Assembly (NCBI RefSeq): GCF_006716185.1
Contig: NZ_VFOP01000001.1
Location: forward strand, 2,232,001-2,296,000
DNA length: 64,000 bases
Source of the DNA: Ornithinicoccus hortensis
GTDB taxonomy: Bacteria; Actinomycetota; Actinomycetes; Actinomycetales; Dermatophilaceae
Direction: 5' to 3'
Both the position numbers and the translations under genes were made by a program. The notes beneath the pieces are model-generated. The model was not told the DNA's origin. It searched no databases and was given only the letters and a program-made list of their open reading frames with translations. Below, piece after piece: positions 1-62,861 of the stretch; positions within the stretch are counted from its first letter, which is position 1; the number at the start of each line of letters is the position of its first letter.

Positions 1-1388
1 CGGTGATGCTCGGCTGGTTCGCCGACGGCGCCGACCCGGACGCCGGGCTGCTGGCCTTCCGGCAGATCAGCGACACGCTCGGGACCACGCACTGGTACCT
101 GCGGATGCTGCGCGACGAGGGTTCGGCCGCGGAACGGCTCGCGCACGTGCTGTCCAGCAGCCGGTATGCCGTCGACCTGCTCATCCGCTCGCCCGAGGCG
201 GTCGTGCTGCTCGGGGACCCGAAGGGCCTGTCCCGCGTCGACCCGGAGACGCTGCGCACCCGGCTCGTGTCGGCCGCCGGTCGGCACGAGGGAGCGGCGG
301 AGGCCTTCCAGGCGGTGCGCACGGTCCGGGCCCGGGAACTGCTGCGGGTTGTGCTGGCCGACCTCGTGGGGGAGCTGGACGACGCCCAGGTGCGGGCCTC
401 CCTCACCGCGCTCACCGACGCCCTGCTGGAGGCCGGACTGGCGGTCGCGACCCGCGCGGTCGTCGGGGACGAGGACCCGCTGGTGCGGATGATGGTCGTC
501 GGGATGGGCCGGCTCGGCGGCGCCGAGCTGGGCTACGCCAGCGACGCCGACGTGATGTACGTCTACGAGCCGGTCGTGGAGGGGACCGAGGGCGCGGCCG
601 AGCAGGCCCTGGCGATCGTCACCGAACTGCGCAAGGGCCTGACCGGCAGCGGGCCCGACCCCGCGATCGAGCTGGACGCCACCCTGCGTCCGGAGGGCAA
701 GAGCGGCCCGCTGGTGCGCAGCCTGGAGTCCTACCGCGCCTACTACGACCGGTGGTCCGCCGGGTGGGAGTCCCAGGCCCTGCTGCGGGCCAGGCCCGTC
801 GCCGGCGACGCCGACCTGGCCCGGCGGTTCACCGAACTGATCGAGCCGCTGCGCTGGCCCGAGGGCGGGATCGACGCCCGGGCCGTCCGCGAGGTGCGCC
901 GGCTCAAGGCCCGGATGGAGGCCGAACGGCTGCCGCGGGGCGCCGACCCGCGCACCCACTTCAAGCTCGGGCTGGGCGGGCTGAGCGACGTGGAGTGGGT
1001 GGTCCAGCTGCACCAGCTCCGGCACGCGCACGAACTGCCGGGCCTGCGCACCACGAGGACCCTGGACGCCCTGCAGGCCCTGGAGGAGGCCGGGCTGGTC
1101 GAGGCCGCCGACGCCGCCGTGCTGCGCCGGTCCTGGGTGCTGGCCTCCCGGCTGCGGGACGTCGGGGTGCTGTGGCGCGGCCGCCCGGTCGACTCGGTGC
1201 CCAGCCACCTGCGGGACGCCGAGGGGATCAGCCGGATCCTGGGTCGGGCACCCGGGCTGGGCAGCAAGCTGGCGGAGGAGTGGCGGCGCACCGCCCGCCG
1301 GGCCCGGCAGGTGGTGGAGCGGTTGTTCTACGAGACGGCACCGGTTCCCGCCGCGTCGCCGCGCCGATCGGACCCCCGGCGTTCGTAG
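1..1388 (+). CDS. glnE: Glutamine synthetase adenylyltransferase/deadenylase, C-terminal part (5' end outside window)
   Basis: The visible ~460 residues are the C-terminal half of GlnE, the enzyme that adds AMP to glutamine synthetase and removes it in response to nitrogen status. The second nucleotidyltransferase domain is recognisable from GMGRLGGAELGYASDADVM, whose SDxD aspartates bind metal, followed by the helical C-terminal region (HFKLGLGGLSDVEWVVQLHQL). Full-length actinobacterial GlnE is about 1000 residues, so roughly half is missing because the window begins inside the gene. The TAG stop is embedded in the -10 box of the next gene. Identification is firm; the start cannot be seen. 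Confidence 0.93.
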   Translation, partial: VMLGWFADGADPDAGLLAFRQISDTLGTTHWYLRMLRDEGSAAERLAHVLSSSRYAVDLLIRSPEAVVLLGDPKGLSRVDPETLRTRLVSAAGRHEGAAEAFQAVRTVRARELLRVVLADLVGELDDAQVRASLTALTDALLEAGLAVATRAVVGDEDPLVRMMVVGMGRLGGAELGYASDADVMYVYEPVVEGTEGAAEQALAIVTELRKGLTGSGPDPAIELDATLRPEGKSGPLVRSLESYRAYYDRWSAGWESQALLRARPVAGDADLARRFTELIEPLRWPEGGIDARAVREVRRLKARMEAERLPRGADPRTHFKLGLGGLSDVEWVVQLHQLRHAHELPGLRTTRTLDALQALEEAGLVEAADAAVLRRSWVLASRLRDVGVLWRGRPVDSVPSHLRDAEGISRILGRAPGLGSKLAEEWRRTARRARQVVERLFYETAPVPAASPRRSDPRRS

Positions 1389-1391
1389 GAT
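1386..1391 (+). promoter_or_regulatory. -10 box TAGGAT giving a leaderless transcript
   Basis: TAGGAT lies exactly 6 nt before the GTG at 1398, so a transcript would start on the start codon. The first three bases are also the glnE stop codon. No convincing -35 is visible. Confidence 0.5.
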
Positions 1392-1397
1392 GGCCCG

Positions 1398-2054
1398 GTG
1401 ACCCCCGACACCCGCGTCCCGACCGGTCCCGCCGCCGGCGTGGACACGGGCCAGGCGGGTCTGCTGCTGCTCCGCGGGGCCCCGCCCGAGGTGTCGGACT
1501 GGGTCCGCCGTGGTGTCGTGCCGGTGACGGTGGCGCCGCTGCCCGGCTGGACCGCGGTGCTGCCCAACGGTCCCTCCCGCGCCGAGCCGCCCTACGACGA
1601 CGCCCTGACCCTGCTGGCCGCGCGGCACGTCCCGCCCAAGGTCGCGCCCGCGATCGGCTTCTTCGCGATCGGGGGGAGGGCCGTCATCACGGTGCAGACG
1701 CGCTCGGTGCGCCGGCACGTCCGGTGGGTCGTGTGGGACCCCGCCCGCGGCGTGCTGCGCCCGCCGGACCTGGCGGTCGCCCCGCCGCAGCTGTTGCTCC
1801 GGGCCGCCGGCGGGGGAGACCGGCGCGAACTGGTCGAGATCCTGGCCGAACGGCACCTGGCACCGCACAAGCTGTTGGCCGCGGTGACCGCCGTCCTCGG
1901 GCTCCCCGGTGGTCGGCTGCTCATCGACCGCACCGAGGTCGAGGACATCGCGGGGGCCATCGACCGGGAGCCGTTGGAGCGCGAGGTCGGCTACTTCGAG
2001 GACGCGGTCAAGGACTCCGTGCGGCTGCGCCGGGAGCTGGAGCTGGAGGCATGA
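1398..2054 (+). CDS. Conserved hypothetical protein, 218 aa
   Basis: I do not recognise a family. The protein is soluble-looking, with no signal peptide or membrane segment. It has a hydrophobic N-terminal half around PPKVAPAIGFFAIGGRAVI and a basic, beta-rich middle (RRHVRWVVWDP), and ends in a charged helix. The GTG start is chosen because a -10 box sits 6 nt upstream (leaderless). The gene overlaps the next start by 4 nt (ATGA), so it is probably co-transcribed and translationally coupled with priA and the SseB-like gene. Function unknown. Confidence 0.75.
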   Translation: MTPDTRVPTGPAAGVDTGQAGLLLLRGAPPEVSDWVRRGVVPVTVAPLPGWTAVLPNGPSRAEPPYDDALTLLAARHVPPKVAPAIGFFAIGGRAVITVQTRSVRRHVRWVVWDPARGVLRPPDLAVAPPQLLLRAAGGGDRRELVEILAERHLAPHKLLAAVTAVLGLPGGRLLIDRTEVEDIAGAIDREPLEREVGYFEDAVKDSVRLRRELELEA

Positions 2055-2764
2055 GCGGGCTCACCCTGCTGCCGGCCGTGGACGTGGCCGGCGGGCGCGC
2101 TGCCCAGGTGGTGGGTGAGGGGACCACCGACCCGTATGCCGTGGCGCGCGCCTGGGTGGACCAGGGCTCAGCGTGGGTGCACCTGGTCGACCTGGACCGG
2201 GCGTTCGGGCGCGGCGACAACCTGGCCCAGCTCGCGGCGATCATCGAGGCGCTGCCGGTGCCGGTGCAGCTGTCCGGGGGGATCGGCGACGAGGAGTCGG
2301 TGGCCGCGGCGCTGGGCACCGGGGCCGCCCGGGTGGTGCTGAGCAGCGCCGCGCTGCGCGACCCGGAGTGGGTCGCGGACGTGGTGGGCACCCACCGCGA
2401 GCGGGTCGCCGTCGGCGTCGACGTGCACGGGGCGGAGGTCGTGGCCCGCGGCAGCGAGGTGCGGCTGGGGCCGCTGGACGACGTGCTGGCGGGCCTGGCC
2501 GCCGTGGACTGCCGCACCTACGTGGTGGCCGACGCCGCGCGGGACGGCCGGCGGCACGGTGCCGACACGACCCTGTTCCGACGGGTCGCCGAGGAGGTCG
2601 ACGGCACGGTCATCGCCTCCGGTGGCGTCGCGTCCCTGGCCGACCTGGAGCAGCTGGCCGCCCTCGCCCCCGTGGGGGTGGGAGGTGTCGTGCTCGGCGC
2701 CGCCCTCTACCACGGCGCGTTCACGCTGGCCGAGGCGCTGGAACTGACGGGGGTGCCGCGGTGA
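2051..2764 (+). CDS. priA: Phosphoribosyl isomerase A (HisA/TrpF bifunctional type)
   Basis: A 237-residue TIM-barrel protein of the HisA family. It isomerises ProFAR to PRFAR in histidine synthesis; in Actinobacteria the same enzyme usually also does the TrpF step of tryptophan synthesis. Visible family motifs are LLPAVDVAGGRAAQ at the N-terminus with the catalytic Asp, HLVDLDRAFG, VQLSGGIG, VVADAARDGRRHG and VIASGGVASLADL, which include the two phosphate-binding loops. ATG overlaps the upstream stop by 4 nt. Whether it truly has TrpF activity is inferred from the phylum, not from a residue I can single out. Confidence 0.9.
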   Translation: MSGLTLLPAVDVAGGRAAQVVGEGTTDPYAVARAWVDQGSAWVHLVDLDRAFGRGDNLAQLAAIIEALPVPVQLSGGIGDEESVAAALGTGAARVVLSSAALRDPEWVADVVGTHRERVAVGVDVHGAEVVARGSEVRLGPLDDVLAGLAAVDCRTYVVADAARDGRRHGADTTLFRRVAEEVDGTVIASGGVASLADLEQLAALAPVGVGGVVLGAALYHGAFTLAEALELTGVPR

Positions 2765-3609
2765 GCGGCGGACGGTTCGAGGGCCACGACCCCGCGCGCG
2801 GGCACGACACGGCCGGCGTCCCGTGGGCCGGCCGGACCCTGACCGGCACCGGCTTCGACGACGACGAGGGGGCCGCGGACGCCGAGCTCGCGGCGGCCCT
2901 CGCGGCGGCGCGGACCGCGGGACACAGTGCGGGGCACGCTGCGGAGCGGGCCGCGGGGCCGGAGCACCCAGCAGCGCCCGGGGGCGAGGAGCGGGTGGTG
3001 GCCGCGGTGGCGGCCGCCCGGCTGCTCGTGCCGGTGGTCGCGGTGCCGGGTGAGGTCGACGACTCCACCGGGCTGGCCGCCGACGTCTCCAGCGACATGG
3101 CGGTCGTCACGCTCACCGCCCCCGACGGCGCCCGTGCGCTGCCCGCCTTCACCTCCCTGGACACCCTCGCGGCGTGGGACCCCGAGGCCCGGCCGGTCCC
3201 GGTGGAGGCATCCAGGGCGGCACAGGCCGCCGTGCAGGAGGGGTGCCAGGTGATCGTGCTGGACCCCCCGCGTCCGGGGACCCCGCCGGACCAGGCGGCC
3301 CCGGCATACGTCCTGCGCGGGTCGATGGTGTGGGCCCTGGCGATGGGGCGCACCTGGGAGCCGGCCCACCGGGACGGTGCGGTCGCGGAGGCTGTGGCGC
3401 AGGCCGTGCGGGGGCTGCCGGCGGTGCGCAGCCACGCCCTCGCGCCGGGGGAGGACGGGGCGCTGCGGGTCGAGCTGGAGCTGGCCGAGGGGCTGGACCA
3501 GGTCACCCTGCAGACCCTGGTGACCGAGATCGGGCAACGGATCGCCGCGGACGGGGAGGTCCGGGCCCGGATCGACGCGCTGGCCTTCGCGCTGCGCACC
3601 GCGCGCTGA
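2761..3609 (+). CDS. SseB-family protein, 282 aa
   Basis: The middle of the protein resembles the SseB N-terminal domain, with a beta-rich core (LLVPVVAVPGEVDDSTG, MAVVTLTAPDGARALPAFTS, LDTLAAWDP) preceded by about 75 residues of low-complexity Ala/His/Gly sequence. The exact role of SseB proteins in Actinobacteria is unclear. A GTG start is chosen because it overlaps the priA stop (GTGA). The same gene commonly follows priA and precedes infC in related genomes, from general knowledge. The low-complexity N-terminus is probably disordered. Confidence 0.75.
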   Translation: MSGGRFEGHDPARGHDTAGVPWAGRTLTGTGFDDDEGAADAELAAALAAARTAGHSAGHAAERAAGPEHPAAPGGEERVVAAVAAARLLVPVVAVPGEVDDSTGLAADVSSDMAVVTLTAPDGARALPAFTSLDTLAAWDPEARPVPVEASRAAQAAVQEGCQVIVLDPPRPGTPPDQAAPAYVLRGSMVWALAMGRTWEPAHRDGAVAEAVAQAVRGLPAVRSHALAPGEDGALRVELELAEGLDQVTLQTLVTEIGQRIAADGEVRARIDALAFALRTAR

Positions 3610-3966
3610 GCCGGTCTGCGACGGGGCCGTCCGGCGCGGGCGTGTCGTGGCCGGGGGGCCGGTGCTGCTATCCTGGTCGGGACCAGTCGTGCGATCGGGC
3701 ACCCAGCAGTGGGTGTTTCGGCGGTGCGACGTGCAAGTGAGGCCCAGAGCTTCCACCCGCGACGACCCCAGGGTTGCCGGGTCAACGGTCCGCAGGTCGT
3801 GGATCGCCCAGCCAGGGCGAGGACCACGGCGCACCACCGTATCCCGTGTGCTCACGGCATACGGTCCCGCGGCGGACCCAGGATCACTCCAGGCCTCTCG
3901 TGCACCCAGGTGACGGGAGGCCTTTCCCGTCCCCGGGGTCCACACCGACGATGAAGGAGCAAGCAC
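3610..3966 (+). promoter_or_regulatory. infC leader region (357 nt, no gene)
   Basis: This gene-free stretch holds a plausible -10 (TATCCT, 3669-3674), a long structured-looking leader, a GGCATAC copy at 3856-3862, a hairpin with short T run at 3891-3925, and a strong ribosome binding site AAGGAG (3954-3959) 7 nt before the AUC start of infC. The arrangement suggests post-transcriptional control of the infC-rpmI-rplT operon, as is known in other bacteria through IF3 or L20. I found no sequence match to a named riboswitch. Confidence 0.5.
3891..3925 (+). terminator. Attenuator-like hairpin in the infC leader
   Basis: AGGCCTCTCG (3891-3900) pairs with CGGGAGGCCT (3914-3923) over 10 positions with one G-U wobble and a 13-nt loop, followed directly by a short T run. 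It lies about 40 nt before the infC start codon, a position suited to attenuation. Confidence 0.5.
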
Positions 3967-5388: not shown

Positions 5389-6204
5389 GTGACCGTGACC
5401 CCCGACCCCGACCTGCTGAGCAACGTGCGCAGCGAGCGGGTCCGGGCGGTCCGGTCCCTGGGCCGTCGCGCTGTCCGGCAGCGACAGGGGCGGTTTGTCG
5501 TGGAGGGGCCGCAGGGGGTGCGGGAACTGCTCCGGTATGCCCCGGGCTCGGCCCGCGACGTCTACCTCACGCCGGCCGCTGCCGACCGGTATGCCGAGCT
5601 GGTCTCGCTCGCGGGGGAGGCCGGCGTCCCGGTGCGGGCCTGCACCGACCAGGTGCTGGCCGCGATGAGTGACACCCCGCACCCGCAGGGGGTGCTGGCC
5701 GTCGCCTCACCGGTCGACGTGCCGCTGGGGGAGGCCCTGGCCGCCGCGACGGACGGTGCGGGGTTCGTGGTGGTGCTGACCAACGTGCGCGACCCCGGCA
5801 ACGCCGGCACGGTGATCCGGGGTGCCGACGCCTTCGGGGCGTCCGCGGTGCTGGTCAGCGATGCCAGCGTGGACGTCTACAACCCCAAGGTGGTCCGGTC
5901 CACGGTCGGGTCGTTGTTCCACCTGCCGCTGGTGCTGGGCGTCCCCGTCCCCGACCTCCTGCAGGCCTGCCGGGTGCACGGCCTGCGTCTGCTCGCGGCA
6001 GACGGCGGTGGCGGCACGATGCTGCCCGACGCCGACCTGACCGCCCCGCACGCCTGGGTGCTCGGCAACGAGGCCTGGGGCCTGCCCGAGGAGGTGCTCG
6101 ACCAGTGCGACGACGTCGTCGCCGTCCCGATCGTGCGCGCCGAGAGCCTGAACCTGGCGATGGCCGCCACCGTCTGCCTGCACGCCTCCTCCGCCGCCCG
6201 CTGA
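5389..6204 (+). CDS. TrmH/SpoU-family rRNA 2'-O-methyltransferase
   Basis: 271 residues with the SpoU N-terminal substrate-binding region (RFVVEGPQGVRELL) and the knotted C-terminal catalytic domain: LTNVRDPGNAGTVIRGADAF (motif 1), WVLGNEAWGLPEEV (motif 2) and VPIVRAESLNLAMAATV (motif 3). These bind S-adenosylmethionine and include the catalytic Arg in NVRDPGN. It probably 2'-O-methylates 23S rRNA (tsnR/rlmB-like). The position between rplT and pheS is conserved in Actinobacteria. The GTG at 5389 has no strong ribosome site; GTG 5395 is an alternative start. Confidence 0.88.
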   Translation: MTVTPDPDLLSNVRSERVRAVRSLGRRAVRQRQGRFVVEGPQGVRELLRYAPGSARDVYLTPAAADRYAELVSLAGEAGVPVRACTDQVLAAMSDTPHPQGVLAVASPVDVPLGEALAAATDGAGFVVVLTNVRDPGNAGTVIRGADAFGASAVLVSDASVDVYNPKVVRSTVGSLFHLPLVLGVPVPDLLQACRVHGLRLLAADGGGGTMLPDADLTAPHAWVLGNEAWGLPEEVLDQCDDVVAVPIVRAESLNLAMAATVCLHASSAAR

Positions 6205-6345: not shown

Positions 6346-7290
6346 TCAGGGCTCGACGACGATCTTGCCCAGGACGCGGCCCGTGCCGACCAGGCCGAGC
6401 GCACCCGGCACTCCGTCGAGTCCGACCGTCCGGTCGATCCGGACCTCGACCTGACCGGCGGCACAGCGCGCGGCGAGGTCGGCGTAGGAGGTCGGACCGG
6501 GCCTGACGACGAGGACGCCGATCCGCCTGCCCCCGCTGAGGCCGACGAGCCTGCCGGCCGTGGCCGTCCGGACCAGCGTGCGGGTCGGGCCGCCGACCAC
6601 CAGGTAGCGCCCGCCCGGCGCCAGGATCCGGCGGAACGCGAAGACGGACCGCTGCGCCGCAAGATCCAGCACGAGGTCACACGGGTCGAGGTCGGTGAAG
6701 TCCGTCACCCCGTAGTCGACGACCTCGTCCGCGCCGAGGGAGTTGATCAGGTCCAGCTTGGCGGCGTTGTCCACGCCGATCACGTGCGCACCGGCGACCT
6801 TGGCCAGCTGCACGGCGAACGTGCCGCTCCCGCCGCCGGCGCCGTTGATGAGCACGCGGGACCCCGGGCCGGCACCGGCGACGCCCTGCGAGGCGATCGC
6901 CCCGGCCTGCGGAAGCGTGCTCGCCTGGGCGAAGGTGAGCCCCGCGGGCTTGTGCGTCAGCATGCTCGCCCGCGCCACGGCATACTCGGCGAAGCCTCCC
7001 ATCGGGCACTCGCCGTACACCTCGTCACCGACCGCGAAGCCGCTGACCTGGCTGCCGACCGCCGCGACCCGACCGGCGATGTCGGAGCCGAGCACGCGGT
7101 TGCCGGGCCGGCGCAGGCCGGAGTAGCGGGCATAGGCAGGGCTGCCGACGAGGCACTCCCAGTCGGCCAGGTTGACCGACGTGGCCGCGACCTCGACCAA
7201 TACCTGCTTCGGGCCCGGGACCGGTCGGGGAAGTTCCTCCAGACGCAGCACTTCTGGTGGTCCGTACCGGTCGTACACGACAGCCCTCAC
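6346..7290 (-). CDS. Zinc-independent NADP-dependent quinone oxidoreductase-like (MDR family)
   Basis: 314 residues of the medium-chain dehydrogenase/reductase family. The N-terminal GroES-like domain (MRAVVYDRYGPPEVLRLEE, ATSVNLADW, GSDIAGRVAAVG, GFAVGDEVYGE) is followed by a Rossmann domain with the glycine loop INGAGGGSGTFAVQLAK. It lacks the catalytic zinc cysteine set, so it should be a quinone or enone reductase rather than an alcohol dehydrogenase; the substrate is unknown. GTG start at 7290 is supported by a -10 box 6 nt upstream. It lies opposite to its neighbours and is enclosed by long inverted repeats, suggesting insertion into the rplT-pheS region. Confidence 0.85.
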   Translation of the reverse strand: MRAVVYDRYGPPEVLRLEELPRPVPGPKQVLVEVAATSVNLADWECLVGSPAYARYSGLRRPGNRVLGSDIAGRVAAVGSQVSGFAVGDEVYGECPMGGFAEYAVARASMLTHKPAGLTFAQASTLPQAGAIASQGVAGAGPGSRVLINGAGGGSGTFAVQLAKVAGAHVIGVDNAAKLDLINSLGADEVVDYGVTDFTDLDPCDLVLDLAAQRSVFAFRRILAPGGRYLVVGGPTRTLVRTATAGRLVGLSGGRRIGVLVVRPGPTSYADLAARCAAGQVEVRIDRTVGLDGVPGALGLVGTGRVLGKIVVEP

Positions 7291-7460: not shown

Positions 7461-8555
7461 GTGTCCGGACCCAATACGAACTACGACCCCGTCGAGGTGA
7501 GCGCGCTCGACCCCGCGGCGATCGAGGCGAACGTCGCCGAGGCGCTCGCGGCGATCGCGGCGGCCAGCAGCCTGGAGGAACTCAAGGCGGTGCGGCTGGC
7601 GCACGCCGCCGAGAAGAGCCCGTTGGCGCTGGCCAACCGCGAGATCGGGGCGCTGCCGCCGAGCGCCAAGGCCGAGGCGGGCAAGCGCGTCGGCCAGGCC
7701 AGGGGGCAGGTGAACAAGGCCCTGACCGAGCGACAGGGCGAGCTGGAGGCCGAGCGGGACGAGCGGATCCTGGTCGAGGAGGCGCTGGACCTCACGGTCG
7801 CGCCCGGGCGCCGGCCGATCGGGCGTCGGCACCCGCTGACGCTGACCGCCGAGCGGATGGCCGACGTGATGGTCGGCATGGGCTGGGAGATCGCCGAGGG
7901 GCCCGAGGTCGAGGCGGAGTGGTTCAACTTCGACGCGCTCAACTTCGACAAGGACCACCCGGCCCGGCAGATGCAGGACACCTTCTTCGTCGAGCCGGCC
8001 GACGCGGGGCTGGTGCTGCGCACCCACACCTCGCCGGTGCAGGCCCGCTCGCTGCTGGAGCGCGGGGCGCCGCTCTACGTCGCGGTGCCCGGCAAGACGT
8101 TCCGCACCGACGAGCTGGACGCCACGCACACCCCGGTCTTCCACCAGATGGAGGGCATCGCGATCGACGAGGGCCTGACCATGGCCCACCTCAAGGGCAC
8201 CCTCGACCGGTTGGCCAGCGAGCTGTTCGGGGAGGGCCTGACCACCCGGCTGCGCCCGGCCTTCTTCCCGTTCACCGAGCCGAGCGCGGAGATGGACTTC
8301 GTCTGCTTCGTATGCCGTGGCGACGACCCGGGCTGCCGCACCTGTGGCGGCACCGGCTGGATCGAGTGGGGCGGCTGCGGCATGGTCAACCAGAACGTGC
8401 TGCGCGCCTGCGGGATCGACCCGGAGCGCTACCAGGGGTTCGCCTTCGGGATGGGCATCGAGCGCTCGCTGATGTTCCGCAACAGCATCGCGGACATGCG
8501 GGAGATCATCGAGGGAGACGTGCGGTTCAACACGCAGTTCGGGATGGAGATCTGA
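7461..8555 (+). CDS. pheS: Phenylalanyl-tRNA synthetase alpha subunit
   Basis: 364 residues, class II synthetase catalytic subunit. The N-terminal coiled coil (residues ~20-100) is followed by motif 1 (MGWEIAEGPEVEAEWFNFDAL), motif 2 (FRTDELDATHTPVFHQMEG) and motif 3 (GFAFGMGIERSLMFRN). A cysteine-rich insert before motif 3 has two CxxC pairs (CFVC, CRTC) in a zinc-ribbon-like arrangement common in actinobacterial PheS. GTG start follows a leaderless-type promoter. The TGA overlaps the pheT ATG by one base, coupling synthesis of the two subunits. Confidence 0.96.
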   Translation: MSGPNTNYDPVEVSALDPAAIEANVAEALAAIAAASSLEELKAVRLAHAAEKSPLALANREIGALPPSAKAEAGKRVGQARGQVNKALTERQGELEAERDERILVEEALDLTVAPGRRPIGRRHPLTLTAERMADVMVGMGWEIAEGPEVEAEWFNFDALNFDKDHPARQMQDTFFVEPADAGLVLRTHTSPVQARSLLERGAPLYVAVPGKTFRTDELDATHTPVFHQMEGIAIDEGLTMAHLKGTLDRLASELFGEGLTTRLRPAFFPFTEPSAEMDFVCFVCRGDDPGCRTCGGTGWIEWGGCGMVNQNVLRACGIDPERYQGFAFGMGIERSLMFRNSIADMREIIEGDVRFNTQFGMEI

Positions 8556-11122
8556 TGCGGGTACCCGTGGAGTGGCTGGCCGAGTACGTGGACCTGCCGA
8601 CCGGGGTCACCGGCGAGCAGATCGCCGCGGACCTGGTCCGGGTCGGCCTGGAGGAGGAGGGCCTGCACGGCGGCGACGTGCAGGGCCCGCTGGTCGTGGG
8701 CCGGGTGCTGGAGGTGTCCCCGGAGCCGCAGAAGAACGGCAAGACGATCAACTGGTGCCAGGTGGACGTCGGGGACGCCAACGGCACCGGCGAGCCGCAG
8801 GGGATCGTCTGCGGCGCCCACAACTTCGCCGCCGGCGACCTGGTCGCGGTGATCCTGCCCGGGGGCGTGTTGCCCGGCAACTTCGAGATCAGCGCCCGCA
8901 AGACCTACGGCCACGTCAGCGCCGGGATGATCTGCTCCTCCCTGGAGCTCGGGCTGGGCCAGGACCACGACGGCATCATCGTGCTGACCGAGTTCCTCGG
9001 CGAGGACGCCGCGGCGGGCCTCGCCCCCGGTCAGGACCTGATCCCCGTCCTCGGGCTGGACCACGAGGTCGTCGAGGTCAACGTCACGCCGGACCGCGGC
9101 TACTGCTTCTCGATGCGCGGCATCGCCCGCGAGTACGGCCACAGCACCGGCGCGGCCTACCGGGACCCCGCGCTGGTGCGCGCCCACGGCGGGGACGTCC
9201 GGCCGATCACCGTGCCCGCGGCGACCAAGGACGGGTATGCCGTGGAGCTGGCCGACGCCGCCCCGCTCGACGGGGTGCCGGGGTGCGACCGCTTCGTGGC
9301 CCGGATCGTGCGCGGGCTGGACCCCGCGGCACAGACTCCGGCGTGGATGGCCACCCGGCTGACCGAGGCCGGGATGCGTCCCATCTCGCTGCCGGTCGAC
9401 GTGTCCAACTACGTGATGCTCGCCCTGGGCCAGCCCACGCACGCCTACGACCTGGGCACCCTCGGCGGGCCGATCGTGGTCCGGCGCGCCCGGGCGGGGG
9501 AGCGGCTGACCACCCTGGACGACGTCGAGCGCCGGCTCGACCCCGAGGACCTGCTGATCACCGACGGCGGGGGCGGGGACCGTCCCGAGCAGGTGCTCGG
9601 CATCGCCGGTGTGATGGGCGGGGCCACCAGCGAGGTGGGCCCGGAGACGACCGAGGTGCTCATCGAGGCCGCCCACTTCGACCCGCGCACGGTGGCCCGG
9701 AGCTCGCGCCGCCACCGGCTCTCCACCGAGGCCTCCAAACGGTTCGAGCGCGGCGTGGACCCCGAGCTCGCCGGGGCGGCCGCCCAGCTGATGGTGGACC
9801 TGATGGTCGAGTACGGCGGGGGCACCGCCGACCCCGGGGTCACCGACGCCGGCTCGGTGGCGCCGCGCGGCACCATCGAGCTGGACGTGGGCCTGCCCGG
9901 CCGCTACGTCGGGGTGGACTACCCGCCGGCCCGGGTGCGGGAGGTGCTCGAGCTGATCGGGTGCCAGGTCACCGAGGCCGGCGAGGGCCGACTGGCCGTG
10001 GTCCCCCCGAGCTGGCGCCCCGACCTCGCGGACCAGCCGGACCTGGTCGAGGAGGTCGCCCGGATCGACGGCTACGACAAGATCCCCTCGCTCCTGCCGT
10101 CCGCGCCGGGCGGTCGCGGGCTGACCCACGCCCAGCGGGTGCGGCGCCGGGTCGCCGACGCCCTGGCGGGCCAGGGCCTGCAGGAGGTGCTCACCTACCC
10201 GTTCGTGGGGGAGGACCGCTTCGCCGAGCTCGGCCTCGCGGCCGGTGACGAGCGTCGGTATGCCGTGCGGCTGGCCAACCCGTTGTCCGACGAGTCCCCG
10301 CTGATGCGGACCGAGCTGCTCCAGACGCTCCCCGACGCGTTGCGGCGCAACGTCTCCCGCGGGGCCAAGGACATCGCCCTCTTCGAGCTGGGCACGGTCA
10401 CCCGCCCGACCCGAGGTGCGGCCGCGCCCGTCCCGGGGGTCGGCGCACGTCCGGACGACGACACGCTCCGGGCCATCCGGGACGCGGTCCCGGAGCAGCC
10501 CTGGCACGTGGCGGTGGTCGCGGCCGGGGCGGCGGACCGGGCCGGCTGGTGGGGCGAGGGACGCGGTAGCGACGTCACCGACGTGGTCGGGTGGGCGCAC
10601 GCGGTGTGCGACCTGCTCGGCGTGACCGTCGAGCGGTTGCAGGCCGAGCGCGCCCCGTTCCACCCCGGTCGGTGCGTGGAACTGGCGCTGCCCGACGGCA
10701 CGACGGTCGGGTGGGCCGGCGAGCTGCACCCCAAGGTGGTGCAGCGGCTCGGGCTGCCCGACCGGACGGTCGCGGCGGAGCTCGACCTGGAGGTGCTCAC
10801 CACGGCGAGCGAGCCGCGTGCGGCCGCGAGCCCGATCTCGACGCACCCCGTCGCCGGCTCGGACGTCGCGCTGGTGGTGAACCGGTCGGTGCGCTACGGC
10901 GACGTGGAGGAGTCGTTGCGGGCGGGCGCCGGCGACTTGCTGGAGTCCATCCTGCTGTTCGACGTCTACCGGGGCGACCAGATCGCGGCCGACGAGCAGT
11001 CGCTGGCCTTCCACCTGGTCTTCCGGGCCCCCGACCGGACGCTGCGGACCGAGGAGGTCAACGCCGCCCGCGACGCGGCCGTGGCCAGGGCGGCGACCGA
11101 CCACGGGGCGGTGCAGCGGTGA
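8555..11122 (+). CDS. pheT: Phenylalanyl-tRNA synthetase beta subunit
   Basis: 855 residues with the full domain order. The N-terminal MRVPVEWLAEYVDLP and EMAP/OB tRNA-binding fold (residues ~40-150, IVCGAHNFAAGD) come first. The B3/B4 editing region (SLPVDVSNYVMLALGQPTHAYD) and the B5 domain (GRYVGVDYPPARVREVLELIG) follow, then the catalytic-like core. The C-terminal FDX-ACB anticodon-binding domain begins near HPVAGSDVALVVNRSVRYGD. It forms the alpha2-beta2 enzyme with PheS. The start codon overlaps the pheS stop by one nucleotide. Confidence 0.96.
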   Translation: MRVPVEWLAEYVDLPTGVTGEQIAADLVRVGLEEEGLHGGDVQGPLVVGRVLEVSPEPQKNGKTINWCQVDVGDANGTGEPQGIVCGAHNFAAGDLVAVILPGGVLPGNFEISARKTYGHVSAGMICSSLELGLGQDHDGIIVLTEFLGEDAAAGLAPGQDLIPVLGLDHEVVEVNVTPDRGYCFSMRGIAREYGHSTGAAYRDPALVRAHGGDVRPITVPAATKDGYAVELADAAPLDGVPGCDRFVARIVRGLDPAAQTPAWMATRLTEAGMRPISLPVDVSNYVMLALGQPTHAYDLGTLGGPIVVRRARAGERLTTLDDVERRLDPEDLLITDGGGGDRPEQVLGIAGVMGGATSEVGPETTEVLIEAAHFDPRTVARSSRRHRLSTEASKRFERGVDPELAGAAAQLMVDLMVEYGGGTADPGVTDAGSVAPRGTIELDVGLPGRYVGVDYPPARVREVLELIGCQVTEAGEGRLAVVPPSWRPDLADQPDLVEEVARIDGYDKIPSLLPSAPGGRGLTHAQRVRRRVADALAGQGLQEVLTYPFVGEDRFAELGLAAGDERRYAVRLANPLSDESPLMRTELLQTLPDALRRNVSRGAKDIALFELGTVTRPTRGAAAPVPGVGARPDDDTLRAIRDAVPEQPWHVAVVAAGAADRAGWWGEGRGSDVTDVVGWAHAVCDLLGVTVERLQAERAPFHPGRCVELALPDGTTVGWAGELHPKVVQRLGLPDRTVAAELDLEVLTTASEPRAAASPISTHPVAGSDVALVVNRSVRYGDVEESLRAGAGDLLESILLFDVYRGDQIAADEQSLAFHLVFRAPDRTLRTEEVNAARDAAVARAATDHGAVQR

Positions 11123-11931
11123 GCGTCCCGGGTCAGGGGACCGCGCCGGGCGCCGCGTCAGGGGACCGGGTCGCCCTGGTCACCGGGGCCTCCCGCGGCA
11201 TCGGCGCGCACTTCGTCCGCGCCCTGCGCGAGGCCGGCTGGACCGTCGTCGGACTGTCCCGCTCCGGGGGCACCGATCCGGATGGCGCGCCCCTGCTGGG
11301 CTGTGACGTCACGGACGCCGCGGCTGTCGGCGCGGTCGTCGACGGGGTCGTCGCCGACCACGGGCGGATCGACCTGCTGATCAACAACGCGGGCCTGGTC
11401 GAGCCGGAGCTGCCGCTGTGGGAGGCCGACCCGGAGACCTGGTGGCAGACCGTGGTGACCAACGTGCGGGGGCCCTTCCTGACCTGCCGGGCGGTGCTCC
11501 CGGTGATGATCGCCCAGGGCGGCGGGCGGGTGATCAACCTGAACAGCGGGGCCGGCACCCGCGAGCGCGCCGACCTCACGGCATACTGCGCCTCCAAGTC
11601 GGCGCTCGCCCGGATCACCGGCGGGATCGCGCTGGACGGTGCCGAGCACGGCATCTACGCGCTCGACCTGGCGCCCGGCGTCGTCGAGACCGACATGACC
11701 CACTCGATGAGGATGCACGAGGGCCGCACCGACTGGACCGATCCCGGCGACGTGACCGCGATCGCGCTGGCCTTCGCCGACGGTGAGCTGGACGGCTTCT
11801 CCGGGCGGATGGTGCGGGCCGGCGCCGACTCCCTGGACACCCTCCGGGAACGCTCCGCGGCCGGGCTCGGCCCCGACGACCGTGCGCTGCGGCTGCGGCC
11901 GTGGGGCCCGGACGACCCGTTGGCCGGGTGA
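11119..11931 (+). CDS. Short-chain dehydrogenase/reductase, 270 aa
   Basis: Classical SDR: cofactor loop TGASRGIGAHFV near the N-terminus, structural motif NNAG (LLINNAGLVEP), and the catalytic YxxxK (AYCASKSALARI) with an upstream Ser (NLNSGAG). Acid residues near the second strand are not clear enough to choose NAD or NADP. GTG start at 11119 overlaps the pheT stop by 4 nt, so it is translationally coupled to pheST, yet it has no obvious link to tRNA charging. The substrate is unknown. Confidence 0.85.
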   Translation: MSVPGQGTAPGAASGDRVALVTGASRGIGAHFVRALREAGWTVVGLSRSGGTDPDGAPLLGCDVTDAAAVGAVVDGVVADHGRIDLLINNAGLVEPELPLWEADPETWWQTVVTNVRGPFLTCRAVLPVMIAQGGGRVINLNSGAGTRERADLTAYCASKSALARITGGIALDGAEHGIYALDLAPGVVETDMTHSMRMHEGRTDWTDPGDVTAIALAFADGELDGFSGRMVRAGADSLDTLRERSAAGLGPDDRALRLRPWGPDDPLAG

Positions 11932-12842: not shown

Positions 12843-14877
<2,035 letters not shown>

Positions 14878-17472: not shown

Positions 17473-22474
<5,002 letters not shown>

Positions 22475-22549
22475 ACAAAGATGATACGCGTCCACTGTGT
22501 GGTTCCCGAGATACGGTCGGGAACAGGAACGACCCAAAACTCGATAGAG

Positions 22550-22666
22550 TTACGGCGGCCATAGCGAGAGGGAAACGCCCGGTCACATACCGAACCCGGA
22601 AGCTAAGCCTCTCAGCGCCGATGGTACTGCACTGGAGACGGTGTGGGAGAGTAGGACACCGCCGGA
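22550..22666 (+). rRNA. rrf: 5S ribosomal RNA, operon 1
   Basis: About 117 nt beginning TTACGGCGGCCATAGCGAGA and ending near GGACACCGCCGGA. The two ends are complementary (helix I) and the CCCGGTCACATACCGAACCC loop is typical. Confidence 0.95.
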
Positions 22667-42223: not shown

Positions 42224-44574
<2,351 letters not shown>

Positions 44575-51327: not shown

Positions 51328-51334
51328 TGCGGGT

Positions 51335-52837: not shown

Positions 52838-53732
52838 CCGACCGGCCCCGCGACCGGCGCGCCGACGTGCGGGTGGTCCTGCGGTGGCGCAGCCATGCGG
52901 CATACCGCTCCCACGGCAGGAAGGCGGACCAGCAGACCACGGTGGGCAGGAAGTGGATCCCGAGCAGCACGAAGGTGCTCAGGTGGAAGCCGACGAAGAA
53001 GAGGACGACCAGCCAGCGGCGGTGCTCGCGGACCAGGAAGACCGCCGGGGCGAGCAGTTCCAGGGCCATCGCGCCCCACTGGGAGGCCCGCAACAGCAGC
53101 GCCTGGTCCACCAGGTGGACGTTGACCGGGTTGGGGCGGCGCAGGAAGGCCCACACCAGGGTCCCGGAGTTGCCCCAGCGGACCAGGTCCCAGTCGTTGA
53201 GCACGGCCTTGGCCAGCACCGACCCGGTGTAGGTCAGCACGGTAAAGACCTGGACCATCCGCAGCGCCCACCCGGCACCACCGCTGCGGTCGGGGTCGCG
53301 GTAGCGGCAGACGCCGGCGGTGGGCAGCACCAGCATCGCCACCATGATCGCCATGTGGTCGTGGGCCACGTAGCCGAAGCTCATCCCGTACAGGCACCAG
53401 ACGGCGTAGCAGCCGCTCAGCAGCAGACCGCCCACCACCTGGACCGCCGCCGGTACCCGGGCGCGGGCGCCCAGCGCGACCCCGACCAACCCCGCCGCGA
53501 TCCCGACCAGCAGCAGGGTGGGGACCGCCCCGGTGGGCGCCGGCAGCCCCAGGGCGGAGGCCACCGGGACCGGGTCGTAGAACTCCGGCGTCCCGCTGCG
53601 GTCGCGGGGCGACCGGAGGAACACCAGGGCGTCGAGCAGCGCCATCGTGCCGACCAGCACCCGGACCCAGGCGACCCGGGCCCGGGGGACGGGGGCGACC
53701 CACCACCCGGCCACGGCGCGGAGCACCCTCAC
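52806..53732 (-). CDS. HTTM-domain-like membrane protein, 308 aa
   Basis: Multi-pass membrane protein with about seven hydrophobic segments (VLVGTMALLDALVFL, VPTLLLVGIAAGLVGVALGA, VVGGLLLSGCYAVWCLYG, MAIMVAMLVLPTAG, MVQVFTVLTYTGSVLAKAVL, WLVVLFFVGFHLSTFVLLGI). Features such as NDWDLVRWGNSG and FVGFHLSTFVLLGIHFLPT resemble HTTM (vitamin K carboxylase-like) membrane proteins. GTG start overlaps the stop of the gene upstream, so the pair is coupled. The role is unknown; Arg-rich C-terminus of about 30 residues. Confidence 0.72.
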   Translation of the reverse strand: MRVLRAVAGWWVAPVPRARVAWVRVLVGTMALLDALVFLRSPRDRSGTPEFYDPVPVASALGLPAPTGAVPTLLLVGIAAGLVGVALGARARVPAAVQVVGGLLLSGCYAVWCLYGMSFGYVAHDHMAIMVAMLVLPTAGVCRYRDPDRSGGAGWALRMVQVFTVLTYTGSVLAKAVLNDWDLVRWGNSGTLVWAFLRRPNPVNVHLVDQALLLRASQWGAMALELLAPAVFLVREHRRWLVVLFFVGFHLSTFVLLGIHFLPTVVCWSAFLPWERYAAWLRHRRTTRTSARRSRGRSVRRDRARARR

Positions 53733-54254: not shown

Positions 54255-55034
54255 TCAGGCCAGACGCCGGCTGTGCCAGGGGTAGGCGGTGCGGTAGCCG
54301 AGCCGGCGGTAGAGCGACAACGCCGTGGCGTTCGCGCTGTACACCCCGAGGGTGCAGACCCCGTGCCCGGCCAGGGCACGGCGGGTCAGCGCCGCGGTGA
54401 TCGCCGCGCCCAGGCCGCGGCCGCGGTGCGCGCCGTGCACGACGATGCCGGCCAGGTGCGGGGCGCCGGAGCTCAGCCGTTGCATGCCCCCGGCGGCCAA
54501 GAGCGCGCCGTCGGCTCCCCGGAGGCCGAGCCACAGCACGGTCCGCCCGGTCCCCGGCTCGCCCTCGGCGGTCGGGCTGTGCTCCGCCGAGAAGACCGCG
54601 AGCTCCTCGGCGTCCGCGGCGTCGTCCAACTCCTGCAGCGCCGCCTCGCCGGGGCGGGAGGCCGGCGCGGAGGTGGTCCACATGAAGTCCCACTCCCCGC
54701 CGCCGGCGAGGTCGAAGTGCGCCGCCAGCACCGCGGCATACGGCTGGGGGATGGACAGGCTGCCCACCCCGAGCCGCGCGACGTGTCCCTCCTCGCGCAG
54801 CCCGGTGAGCAGGTCGGCGAGGCCGTCCGCGGGGGAGGTGCCGCCGGCGGGCAGCGGGATCAGCCACAGCCCGTGCCGGTGGGTGCTCTGCCGTTCCACC
54901 GCCACGGCCCCCGTGCCCGCCAGGACCGCCCCCTCGAACGGGTCGGGCACCGCCCACCGGACGAACGGGTCGTCCCGGGTCAGGCCCAGCAGGTCCGGGT
55001 GGGTGCGCACGGGGCGCAGCGGTCGGTCGGGCAC
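54255..55034 (-). CDS. GNAT-family N-acetyltransferase
   Basis: 259 residues. The C-terminal GNAT core is clear: GIVVHGAHRGRGLGAAITAA (acetyl-CoA loop R/QxxGxG/A type) followed by GVCTLGVYSANATALSLYRR and LGYRT. The N-terminal half (YAAVLAAHFDLAGGGEWDFM and WTTS) is a second, degenerate GNAT-like unit. Substrate unknown. Two GTG codons are available; the second (55034) is chosen because the -10 TACGAT (55041-55046) predicts transcription start exactly there, whereas GTG 55040 would lie upstream of the transcript. Confidence 0.8.
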   Translation of the reverse strand: MPDRPLRPVRTHPDLLGLTRDDPFVRWAVPDPFEGAVLAGTGAVAVERQSTHRHGLWLIPLPAGGTSPADGLADLLTGLREEGHVARLGVGSLSIPQPYAAVLAAHFDLAGGGEWDFMWTTSAPASRPGEAALQELDDAADAEELAVFSAEHSPTAEGEPGTGRTVLWLGLRGADGALLAAGGMQRLSSGAPHLAGIVVHGAHRGRGLGAAITAALTRRALAGHGVCTLGVYSANATALSLYRRLGYRTAYPWHSRRLA

Positions 55035-55338: not shown

Positions 55339-56721
55339 GTGCCCGGACCCGACGGTGGTGACCTGTTCGCCCAGCAGCTCGACGAGACCGGCGACCTGCG
55401 ACCGCCCCTGGCGGTGCGGATGCGCCCGGCCTCGCTGGAGGAGGTCCGCGGGCAGGGGGACGTGCTGCGGCCGGGGAGCCCGCTGCGCCGATTGATCGAG
55501 GGGCAGGGCGGTGCGGCCGGGCCGCTGTCGGCCATCCTCTGGGGTCCGCCGGGGACCGGCAAGACGACCCTGGCGCACCTGGTGGCCCAGGCCGCCGGAC
55601 GCACCTTCGTGGAGCTGTCCGCCGTCACCGCGGGGGTCAAGGACGTCCGGGCGGTGATGGAGCAGGCGACCCGCGAGCGGAGCCTGTACAGCCGGCAGAC
55701 GGTGCTCTTCCTCGACGAGATCCACCGGTTCAGCAAGGCCCAGCAGGACGCCCTGCTGCCGGGGGTGGAGAACCGGCTGGTGATCCTGGTCGCCGCCACC
55801 ACCGAGAACCCCTCGTTCAGCGTGATCTCCCCGCTGCTGTCGCGGTCCATGCTGATCCGGCTGCAGTCCCTGGACGACCAGCAGGTCGGCGAGGTGATCG
55901 ACGAGGCGCTGGTGGACGGGCGGGGACTCGAGGGCAGGTTCACCCTCGAGCCGGAGGCCCGGGACCACGTGATCCGGATCGCCGGCGGGGACGCCCGCCG
56001 GGCGCTGACCACGCTGGAGGCCGCTGCGGGGGTCGCCGAGGACGCCGTGCCCGCGGGGCGCGAGCACGAGCCGGTGGTGATCACCGTCGCCGCCGCCGAA
56101 CAGGCCGTGGACCAGGCAGCCGTCCGCTACGACCGGACCGGGGACCAGCACTACGACGTGGCCAGCGCCTTCATCAAGTCCATGCGGGGCAGCGACGTCG
56201 ACGCGGCACTGCACTACCTGGCCCGGCAGCTGGAGGCGGGGGAGGACCCGCGGTTCATCGCGCGGCGGATCGTCATCGCGGCCAGCGAGGACGTGGGGAT
56301 GGGGGACCCGACGGCCCTGCAGACCGCCGTGGCCGCGATGCACGCGGTCGCCCAGATCGGGATGCCCGAGGCCCGGATCATCCTGGCGCAGGCCGTGGTC
56401 CACAACGCGCTCGCGCCCAAGTCCAACGCGGCATACGGCGGGATCAACGCCGCCATCGCCGACGTGCGGGCGGGCAAGGGGGGCGCGGTCCCGGCCCACC
56501 TGAGGGGGAGCGGGTATGCCGGGGCGGCTGGACTCGGGCACGGGGAGGGCTACCGCTACAGCCACGACGAGCCGGCCGGGGTCGGGCCGCAGCAGTACCT
56601 GCCCGACGACCTGGTCGACGCCGACTACTACCACCCCACGGACCGTGGTTGGGAGGAACGTCTCGGGCCGCGCTGGCGCCACCTGCGCGGGATCATCCGG
56701 GGCGAGGAATCCTCCGGTTAG
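55339..56721 (+). CDS. rarA: Replication-associated recombination protein A (MgsA/RarA AAA+ ATPase)
   Basis: 460 residues. AAA+ module with Walker [18 protein letters not shown], Walker [21 protein letters not shown], sensor 1 region [19 protein letters not shown], then the tetramerisation and MgsA C-terminal regions ([36 protein letters not shown]). Works at stalled replication forks. GTG start set by the leaderless promoter. alaS follows directly. Confidence 0.92.
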
Positions 56722-61269: not shown

Positions 61270-61272
61270 GCC

Positions 61273-62112
61273 ATGCCGCACCGTGCCGGGGTGGTCGGGG
61301 ACCCGATCGCCCACTCCCTGTCTCCTGCACTGCATACGGCCGCGTATGCCGCGCTGGGCCTGACCGACTGGACCTACGGGCTGACCCGGGTCCCGGCCGG
61401 TGACCTCGCCCGGCACGTCGGGGGCCTGGACGACTCCTGGGTCGGGATCTCGGTGACGATGCCCGGCAAGGAGGAGGCGCTCGCGCTCGCGGACGTCGTG
61501 GGCGACGAGGCCGCGCTGGTCGGCGCCTCCAACACGCTCACCCGCACGGAGGGCGGCTGGCGGGCGGACAACACCGACGTCGCGGGCCTGGCGGAGGCGC
61601 TGACGGGGGTCGAGGTCCGTGGGCCCGGTCCGGTCGACGTCATCGGGGCCGGGGCCACGGCACGGTCCGCGCTCGTCGCGCTGCACCGGGTCGGCGCCCG
61701 GTCCCTGCGGTTCGTGGTCCGCGGGACGGTGCGCCCGGAGACCGCCGCCCTGGCCGTCCGGCTGGGCCTCACGACGAGCACCGTGTCGTATGCCGACTGG
61801 TCGGCCGGGTTGGCCCGCGGCGCAGGGGCGGACGTGGACCTGGTGCTGAGCACGGTCCCACCCGGCGCGACGCCGCCTGTGGACGGCGCCCCCACCTCCC
61901 CGGCCGGCGTGGTGTTCGATGTGACGTATGCCCCGTGGCCCAGTCCCCTCGCTCACGACGTCGCCCGGCACGGCCGCACCGCCGTGGGCGGGTGGACCAT
62001 GCTGCTGCACCAGGCCGCGGCCCAGGTGCGCCTGATGACCGGGCTCGACGCCCCGGTGGAGGCGATGCGCGCCGCCCTCGCCGAGCGCCTGCCCCAGGCC
62101 GCGGCGGGATGA
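61273..62112 (+). CDS. aroE: Shikimate dehydrogenase
   Basis: 279 residues. Substrate domain begins GVVGDPIAHSLSPALHTAAY and has ISVTMPGKEEALAL with the catalytic Lys. ADNTDVAGLAEAL carries the catalytic Asp, and the NADP domain opens VDVIGAGATARSALVAL. It reduces 3-dehydroshikimate in the aromatic pathway. ATG 3 nt after mltG; stop overlaps the peptidase ATG. Paired with aroC one gene further on. Confidence 0.92.
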   Translation: MPHRAGVVGDPIAHSLSPALHTAAYAALGLTDWTYGLTRVPAGDLARHVGGLDDSWVGISVTMPGKEEALALADVVGDEAALVGASNTLTRTEGGWRADNTDVAGLAEALTGVEVRGPGPVDVIGAGATARSALVALHRVGARSLRFVVRGTVRPETAALAVRLGLTTSTVSYADWSAGLARGAGADVDLVLSTVPPGATPPVDGAPTSPAGVVFDVTYAPWPSPLAHDVARHGRTAVGGWTMLLHQAAAQVRLMTGLDAPVEAMRAALAERLPQAAAG

Positions 62113-62861
62113 GCACCTGGCTACTGCCCCTGGTCGTCGCCGGGCTCGCCCTGGGCGGGGTACCCGTGGCGCGCTGGCTGCGGTGGGTGAGCTACCGCAA
62201 GCCGGACGAGGAGGACCTGCCGCTGCCCGGCAAGCGGTGGTGGGTGCCGCCCTGGCTGGCCGTGGCCGGCGGGCTCCTCACCTGGCGGGTGGTGCTCTCC
62301 GACCCGGCCCGCGGCGTCGGCGAGGTGGTCGACCCCGGGGTCGGCAGCGGCCGGGAGGGCTGGGTCCAGCTGGTGCTCCTGCTGACCCTGCTCGCGGTCA
62401 TGCTGGCCTGCGTCTGCCTGGCCGCGATGGACATGGACGTGCACCGGCTCCCCGACCGCATCATGTGGCCGACCATGGGGGTGCTCACCGTCGGGCTGCT
62501 GCTGGCCGGCCTGCTCGGCGGGGGGCTGCTGCCGTGGGTCTGGGCGCTGCTCGCCGGACTGCTCTGCGGGCTCGCCTACCTCCTGCTGGCGCTGACCTCA
62601 CTGGCCCGGGGATCGCTCGCGATCGGTCTCGGGGACGTCAAGTTGGCCGCCCTGCTGGGCGCCGGGCTCGGCTGGTTCGGCTGGCAGTCGGTGGTCGTGG
62701 GGATGTATGCCGGGGTGCTCCTCGGCGGGGTGTTCGCCCTGGTGCTGCTCGTGCTGCGCCGCGTCACCTTCGGCGGCCACCTGCCCTACGGGCCCCCGAT
62801 GATGATCGGTGCGCTGGTGGGAGCCGTGCTGCCGCCGGATGTGCTGTCCGGACTGTTCTGA
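62109..62861 (+). CDS. Prepilin peptidase (A24 family)
   Basis: 250 residues, seven or eight hydrophobic segments. The two catalytic aspartates lie in LAAMDMDVHRLPDRIMWPTM and IGLGDVKLAALLGAGLGWFG (GxGDxK). The N-terminal methyltransferase-like zinc domain of full PilD is absent; residues ~28-50 are a short basic loop. It should cleave type IV pilin or Tad/competence pseudopilin leaders, but no pilin genes are in this window. ATG overlaps aroE by 4 nt. Confidence 0.88.
   Translation: MSTWLLPLVVAGLALGGVPVARWLRWVSYRKPDEEDLPLPGKRWWVPPWLAVAGGLLTWRVVLSDPARGVGEVVDPGVGSGREGWVQLVLLLTLLAVMLACVCLAAMDMDVHRLPDRIMWPTMGVLTVGLLLAGLLGGGLLPWVWALLAGLLCGLAYLLLALTSLARGSLAIGLGDVKLAALLGAGLGWFGWQSVVVGMYAGVLLGGVFALVLLVLRRVTFGGHLPYGPPMMIGALVGAVLPPDVLSGLF

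Follow-up and report, generated by a model that had tools for sequence, protein, structure and literature searches.

In this work, we describe a short DNA word, GTATGCC, that is strongly over-represented in the genome of Ornithinicoccus hortensis and of many of its relatives, and that probably acts, with GTATGCCGTG as its best form, as a self mark of the DNA uptake sequence (DUS) kind. The word was noticed in a stretch of 64,000 nucleotides (hereafter the window), which covers positions 2232001-2296000 of the 3,935,242-base chromosome of this species. An excess that extends over genome and genus and lies at the level of the DNA, dialects among genera, strand balance, scarcity in acquired DNA and the presence of com and tad genes all support such a reading. 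From these features we infer competence itself, the specificity of uptake, the receptor and the molecular drive, as well as the step that leads from the word to uptake.

Genome-wide excess and constraint on the DNA

We found 2,073 copies of GTATGCC in the O. hortensis genome (1049 + 1024 by strand), against 509 (266 + 243) of the reversed word, which served as the genome-wide control. In a sample of 464 kb, made up of 20 spaced stretches of 20 kb plus the window, GTATGCCG was the top 8-mer under both an order-2 and an order-3 Markov model, with 206 copies against 9.4 and 13.0 expected, respectively, and the top 10-mer under an order-4 model was GTATGCCGTG (69 vs 3.1 expected). The excess of the 7-mer vanishes under an order-5 model (234 vs 216 expected) because models of high order hold most of the word and absorb its excess.

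The initial annotation had proposed that the constraint acts on the DNA and not on the protein, and had named beforehand a codon-aware null as a possible refutation. Synonymous shuffling within genes, which preserves protein and codon usage, left the excess in place: the genes of our sample hold 192 copies, against 35.4 ± 5.4 (maximum 50) in 100 shuffles, and those of a second species, G007 (400 kb sampled), hold 325 against 34.1. Enrichment extends to all six frame-orientation classes, from 1.9 to 8.8 fold in the genes of O. hortensis and from 5.2 to 13.5 fold in those of G007. With open reading frames (ORFs) called by simple callers, so that coding and noncoding labels are approximate, the density per kb in noncoding and coding DNA was 0.61 vs 0.49 in O. 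hortensis and 0.85 vs 0.97 in G007. As many as 153 of the 235 TAT codons sampled in G007, and 111 of 306 in O. hortensis, lie inside the motif. The synonymous shuffles, together with the noncoding and off-frame copies, rule out a codon or codon-pair preference as the sole cause.

Beyond the 7-mer, the O. hortensis copies carry 0.85, 0.47 and 0.22 bits of information at bases 8, 9 and 10 and about zero thereafter, except for 0.23 bits at bases 13 and 16, a codon-like three-base rhythm. In G007, the base immediately preceding the word carries 0.38 bits, and no other flanking position exceeds 0.15. Because the flanking information fades within three bases in the first genome and within one in the second, the word is not part of a longer repeat there; it is short and isolated in both, which also speaks for a constraint on the DNA.

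The roughly balanced orientation first noted in the window holds genome-wide, as the strand counts given above indicate, and no replication-strand bias was seen among 199 sampled copies: 95 or 104 of them fall on the leading strand with the first origin placements, and 90-109 over 20 placements. The spacing of the word matches random placement (coefficient of variation 1.00), and its density is roughly even across the 20 stretches.

Distribution among relatives and one-base dialects

A comparison with related genera, already suggested by the initial annotation, extended the finding well beyond O. hortensis. Our surveys of profiles and proteins covered 97 genomes: 59 of the family, among them O. 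hortensis and 30 others of its genus, and an outgroup set of 38 from 19 other families of the order. The genus corresponds to the Ornithinimicrobium/Ornithinicoccus group, since one contig of G022 is identical to the record of Ornithinicoccus halotolerans, the species to which that genome belongs, and a partial ComEA translation of G003 is the same as that of Ornithinimicrobium sp. CNJ-824. The family covers the Intrasporangiaceae and Ornithinimicrobiaceae of NCBI and is the Dermatophilaceae of GTDB.

GTATGCC is abundant in 29 of the 30 other genus genomes, with a density from about 230 per Mb upwards and an excess of some 2.9 to 21 fold over the reversed word. The sole member at background is G022, with 87 copies (reversed word 35) and, in its sample of 85.1 kb, 1 copy vs 1.3 expected. 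Many other genera of the family also carry the word, for instance Knoellia aerolata, with 15 copies in 16 kb, Intrasporangiaceae URHB0013, UBA4719 and Ornithinimicrobium CNJ-824; G035, G042, G047, G048, G049, G051 and G052 were called carriers from genome-wide counts alone. Janibacter indicus had zero copies in 17.7 kb. In the 38 outgroup genomes the ratio of GTATGCC to the reversed word does not exceed about 2.5, and the word is nowhere dense. The samples taken from the other genera and from G022 (54 to 85 kb each) yielded no firm word in G022, G032, G036, G038, G039, G040, G043, G044 and G058, the word-free status of eight genera being based on 55-60 kb each together with the genome-wide GTATGCC counts. 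In the tally of 29 genera used below, G036 is counted as word-free, and the uncertain G031 and G054 stand outside these eight.

In a ComEC tree of 22 rows, in which 7 of the 19 inner forks were unresolved, carriers of GTATGCC fall both in the genus clade (support 98/98) and in a clade of 12 rows (97/98). The word-free G022 groups with O. hortensis and G014 (99/98), and the word-free G058 with URHB0013 (100/99). Set against the GTDB families, two rows of family f5 lie inside the 12-row clade, so the ComEC tree does not cleanly reflect the species phylogeny.

Dialects that differ from the word by a single base occur in other genera, namely GGTATGCC, GTATGNCG, GGATGCCG, GTACGNCG and GTATGCGG. The first is that of G007 (272 copies against 9.1 and 15.1 expected under order-2 and order-3 models), and in G037 the word takes the form CGTATGCCGC. 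The dialect GTATGNCG occurs in G041, G034, G033 and G057, the last of which prefers GTATGACG (40 vs 0.9 at order 2 and 3.2 at order 3). In G056 and G046 we found GGATGCCG, with 64 vs 6.3 and 43 vs 6.4 in the samples and 3949 (reversed word 289) and 3816 (392) copies genome-wide, while G053 has GTACGNCG, its GTACGCCG counting 48 vs 7.3, and G050 has GTATGCGG (17 vs 1.1). Left out of the firm dialects were CGTACGCC of G054 (22 of 41 copies coding), GGAGSCGG of G036 and GGATGCCG of G031, where all 36 sampled copies are coding and the flanks show a codon rhythm. In genome-wide counts of GGATGCCG the reversed word is a loose control, since two GTATGNCG genomes reach 5 to 6.6 fold over it (842 vs 166 copies in G033 and 827 vs 126 in G041). 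The 1336 copies of G031 (reversed word 310) amount to a 4.3 fold excess, which therefore proves little; the 28 fold excess of the same word in G094 stands out. That genome belongs to f19, a family outside that of the window, in which GGATGCCG has 4491 copies in G094 (reversed word 159) and 1548 in G078 (184).

A particular situation was found in G045, which has 1,209 copies of GTATGCC genome-wide and was kept as a carrier. Here the word heads a longer repeat, approximately GTATGCCGCTGRGCYYGCTC, that by eye is partly palindromic and may be a dispersed repeat of the hairpin type; 23 of 46 word copies lie in called genes, the set for flank analysis having been enlarged by three loci of the tad region.

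Some further words were over-represented as well. G036 has GGAGCCGG (46 vs 10.7) and GGAGGCGG (35 vs 9.6), and G040 the palindrome GGACGTCC (12 vs 1.6). The word GTACGCCG counts 23 vs 3.8 in 17 kb of L126, from a Hamadaea metagenome-assembled genome (MAG), and 7 vs 0.9 in L082 (Austwickia), with a milder excess in L094 and L125 (Micromonospora) and in L092 (a Jiangellaceae MAG).

Scarcity in acquired DNA

The word is scarce in the parts of two prophages that we read and in one island. In the related genomes G002 and G017, an insert of about 40 kb interrupts comEC in the same region, near residue 288 (L053-L054 and L055-L056, respectively), an arrangement reminiscent of the comK prophages of Listeria. 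Seven of the eight insert proteins tested match PHROGs, the remaining one, from G017, having no match. Both inserts have a phage integrase at the junction, and its second match is a DNA invertase, suggesting an integrase of the serine type; the insert of G002 further encodes tape measure, tail and tail-assembly proteins and one protein of unknown function, and that of G017 an endolysin. In the 45.5 kb read of these prophages we counted 4 words, where the density of the genome would predict 19.6 (P = 2.4e-5), and the 26.5 kb that flank them hold 11. The island is L010 of O. hortensis (positions 1800001-1820000), chosen as the lowest of the 20 stretches, with 1 word in 20 kb against 10.5 expected. 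It contains a tyrosine integrase, a transposase pair that by eye looks IS3-type, and defence genes of the Hma type (HmaB and HmaC by PADLOC) along with a GmrSD-like gene identified by Pfam.

Competence and pilus genes

Both comEA and comEC (L051) are present in O. hortensis, together with two tad loci. The first of these (L226), with the order tadA-tadB-tadC-flp-tadE-tadF-tadG, lies a little upstream of prfB, and the other is L227. Pfam supports the ComEA domains, ComEC, both TadA proteins, one TadE and one Tad/TadG-like protein; flp and TadF had no Pfam match. This set is like that used for Flp-pilus transformation in M. luteus, which, according to PMC4322843, needs comEC and genes of both tad loci. 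For the family of the word, unlike for M. luteus, transformation is a prediction.

Across the 97 genomes comEC occurs in 92 and TadE in 96, and the latter is thus ruled out as a discriminating marker. Fewer than two tadA matches, in counts that include accessory and partial matches from 37 of the 59 family genomes, were found only in G036 (0), G043 (1) and G044 (1), all of them without a firm word; the single tadA left in the last two resembles that of tad-2. This association between low tadA and absence of the word (P = 0.015, with 8 word-free of 29 genera) was conceived after seeing the data, and it weakens should the doubtful GGAGSCGG of G036 prove to be a word. One accessory TadA of G025 was discarded as a shared machine, as near-identical proteins occur only in G007 and G021 among the same 37 genomes. 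A pilus of the PilM type was likewise rejected as the uptake machine: among the 35 family genomes searched, 33, O. hortensis included, gave no hit to PilM_2 (PF11104), and the hits in the other two were weak, that in G006 falling below the cut-off and that in G018 above it with its neighbours.

Based on these data, we propose that in this family free DNA would enter cells by way of ComEA/ComEC and Flp (Tad) pili, and that an extracellular DNA-binding part of the machine, for which a minor Tad pilin is a candidate by analogy, would prefer DNA bearing the word. Such fragments would enter and recombine more often, so that copies would arise and persist at any site where the sequence can accommodate them, on either strand and in genic as well as intergenic DNA. 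Drift of the receptor specificity may then give rise to one-base dialects between genera, and after a loss of uptake the words would decay to background.

Copies in the window

The window contains exactly 35 copies, 19 as GTATGCC and 16 as GGCATAC, at every start position that the initial annotation had given for its count of at least 35. Its rough estimate of the number expected by chance was four to five; 100 dinucleotide shuffles of the window gave a mean of 3.65 (standard deviation 1.93, maximum 10). The copies are as follows, with coordinates in the window, the strand of GTATGCC and the context.

164..170, +, Arg-Tyr-Ala
2134..2140, +, Pro-Tyr-Ala
3303..3309, -, Pro-Ala-Tyr (GGCATAC on +)
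3856..3862, -, noncoding DNA
5535..5541, +, Arg-Tyr-Ala
5589..5595, +, Arg-Tyr-Ala
6979..6985, -, Glu-Tyr-Ala, minus-strand gene
8310..8316, +, frame 0, Val-Cys-Arg
9235..9241, +, Gly-Tyr-Ala
10258..10264, +, Arg-Tyr-Ala
11580..11586, -, Thr-Ala-Tyr
11954..11960, +, Pro-Tyr-Ala
13070..13076, +, Val-Tyr-Ala
15021..15027, +, Ala-Tyr-Ala
15477..15483, -, Thr-Ala-Tyr
22995..23001, -, frame 1, Arg-His-Thr
34116..34122, -, Thr-Ala-Tyr
34947..34953, -, Thr-Ala-Tyr
36468..36474, -, Gly-Ala-Tyr
40659..40665, +, Leu-Tyr-Ala
42172..42178, -, Thr-Ala-Tyr
44399..44405, +, frame 1, Gly-Met-Pro
44958..44964, -, Thr-Ala-Tyr
47627..47633, -, Thr-Ala-Tyr
49556..49562, -, Thr-Ala-Tyr
51333..51339, +, across the start codon of ORF 51335-52837
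52693..52699, +, Pro-Tyr-Ala
52899..52905, -, Arg-Tyr-Ala, minus-strand gene
54735..54741, -, Pro-Tyr-Ala, minus-strand gene
56430..56436, -, Ala-Ala-Tyr
56514..56520, +, Gly-Tyr-Ala
61344..61350, +, Ala-Tyr-Ala
61788..61794, +, Ser-Tyr-Ala
61926..61932, +, Thr-Tyr-Ala
62705..62711, +, Met-Tyr-Ala

As many as 33 of them lie within called ORFs. Most encode Tyr-Ala as TAT GCC (19 copies) or Ala-Tyr as GCA TAC (11), in agreement with the first description; three are in other frames, one is at a start codon and one is noncoding, and these exceptions (8310, 22995, 44399, 51333 and 3856) all read as originally described. The motif accounts for 19 of the 33 TAT codons found in the window. The longer form attributed to about half of the copies is seen in 17 of the 35, as GTATGCCGT, and a G follows GTATGCC in 30.

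The window also contains two complete 16S-23S-5S ribosomal RNA operons, direct repeats at 17473-22667 and 24960-30153, whose starts are about 7.5 kb apart and between which a single ORF (22802-24487) was called.

Alternative explanations and points against uptake

Short words may become abundant in other ways, and of the candidate causes listed in the initial annotation the uptake signal fits best, while Chi-like recombination and a repair bias of the Vsr type are weakened. A Chi-like signal, which RecBCD or AdnAB would read so as to switch from degradation to repair and which would accumulate in the core genome, seems to us unlikely. Chi words are short, over-represented and lineage-specific, RecC was found in 30 of the 31 genus genomes searched and scarcity in prophages would fit. 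However, the copies of GTATGCC show no leading-strand bias, a 75% bias such as that of E. coli Chi is rejected (P from 2e-16 to 6e-12 over the first origin placements), and RecC is missing in 18 of the 28 other family genera, with G033, G034, G035, G037, G042, G045, G047, G048, G051 and G052 as GTATGCC carriers that lack it. The strand test and the RecC profile therefore speak against RecBCD-Chi, AdnAB lying outside the search. A binding site for a protein that organises the chromosome, or for some other DNA-binding protein, with site and protein coevolving, is a slightly poorer candidate still: a changing protein would also produce one-base dialects of an isolated short word, and the roughly even distribution along the chromosome would suit it, but the scarcity in acquired DNA requires an extra explanation, and no chromosomal protein is known to keep thousands of unclustered, non-palindromic and strand-balanced coding sites.

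We regard as improbable that the word is linked to methylation, being recognised by an orphan or restriction-modification methylase and maintained or multiplied in the manner of HIP1. There is an adenine on each strand of the word, as in many methylase sites, and dialects could track specificity subunits; on the other hand, restriction sites are usually avoided rather than amplified, and the word is non-palindromic, unlike the over-represented HIP1 octamer of cyanobacteria, which is a palindrome. By profile, PF01555, the only methylase family searched, is absent from O. hortensis and from G007 and patchy elsewhere (41 of 97 genomes), and it was discarded as an explanation. Hardly credible, finally, is a bias without function, whether in sequence-specific mutation or repair (for example, very-short-patch repair) or in codon pairs. 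Single neighbours of the word are indeed skewed (GTATGCT 1 vs 10.2, GTATGTC 41 vs 10.2), but Vsr was not found in O. hortensis, G007, G011, G021 or G026, being present in 41 of the 97 genomes, and GTATGC summed over the most skewed position still reaches 277 vs 64.8, about a fourfold excess. Since conversion at one position cannot raise the sum over that position, a bias of the Vsr type is weakened, and the excess in every frame and in noncoding DNA excludes codon pairs as the only cause. None of Vsr, PF01555 and RecC tracks the word.

Several observations weigh against the word being an uptake mark. Under an order-4 model the GGTATGCC excess of G007 is only about twofold (272 vs 136) and other words rank higher, partly because the word dominates its own subwords, and G045 may be a different case, with its word in a longer, half-intergenic repeat. 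Moreover, comEA/comEC and tad are nearly universal here, in most non-carriers too; the word-free G032, G038, G039, G040 and G058 retain comEC and at least two tadA matches, so that these genes are not sufficient predictors. The converse is also seen, as the word persists in G002, G017 and G014, whose comEC is broken, in the last by an in-frame gap where the O. hortensis protein has residues 371-506 (L057, 7110-9035); this fits an uptake mark only if the breaks are recent. No comEC match was obtained in the carriers G019 and G023, which are drafts (75% complete and 570 contigs). In favour of an uptake mark, the homology of comEC in the word-free G022 stops at residue 397, the remainder being absent from that assembly; yet the contig ends only 155 bp from this break, which may thus reflect the assembly. 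No differences in ComEA that could act as a specificity switch were seen between carriers and non-carriers, and inspection by eye of the tad-1 pilins, in which the flp motif located tad-1 in 8 of 11 loci (G056, G038 and G031 excepted), revealed no receptor candidate separating the two. Close pairs of the word, in any orientation within 60 bp, number 9 vs 7.0 expected in the O. hortensis sample, and inverted pairs, which are common for neisserial DUS, are not in excess there. Finally, our searches of open-licence literature yielded no uptake or transformation data for this family.

Comparison with known uptake sequences

In the features tested, that is, excess, action at the DNA level, strand balance, dialects and scarcity in acquired DNA, the word resembles those that mark DNA for uptake in Neisseriaceae and Pasteurellaceae. 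Neisserial DUS are used in both orientations. According to PMC3630211, they are short asymmetric words with thousands of copies, commonly intragenic, and with dialects of a few bases that track phylogeny, some relatives having no word; the copy number, intragenic copies, dialects and word-free relatives described here are all similar. The differences lie in the phylum, in the PilM-type pilus, for which most of the 35 family genomes searched gave no match, and in close pairs, which were in excess only in G045 (4 vs 0.7), the counts elsewhere being 10 vs 21.1 in G007, 8 vs 6.0 in G037 and 9 vs 5.6 in G041. Because we found neither a type IVa pilus nor an excess of inverted pairs, the word is classed as working like a DUS and not as a member of the ComP/DUS system. 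It shares ATGCCGT with AT-DUS, a likeness that we take as chance, and is otherwise unrelated to the neisserial words.

The uptake signal sequences (USS) of Pasteurellaceae are, according to PMC12616744, highly enriched words of about 9-12 bases with dialects, for which a minor pilin is the proposed receptor. They belong to another phylum, differ in the word and use a Gram-negative type IV pilus. In PMC12616744, published in 2025, such uptake words are still described as known from two families alone. Among the matches listed for the open-licence literature, no previous description of a word of this kind from Actinobacteria turned up; the M. luteus paper PMC4322843 has 'uptake sequence' 0 times in its text, and PMC12849477 (2026), on M. 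luteus competence, contains neither 'uptake sequence' nor 'DUS'.

On balance, we incline to see here a third independent uptake-sequence system, which would be the first in Actinomycetota and in Gram-positives, read by a machine with Flp/Tad pili, with at least six dialects in the family (GTATGCCG, GGTATGCC, GTATGNCG, GGATGCCG, GTACGNCG and GTATGCGG), a probable carrier family outside it (f19), and whole genomes shaped by self-preferring uptake. If the words work like known uptake sequences, sequence-specific uptake would have arisen once more, in a Gram-positive phylum and with a different pilus. The spread of the word, the division of gene pools by dialects and the binding of DNA on Flp pili would then become directly testable, and many unstudied actinobacteria would be predicted to be naturally transformable by DNA that carries the right word.

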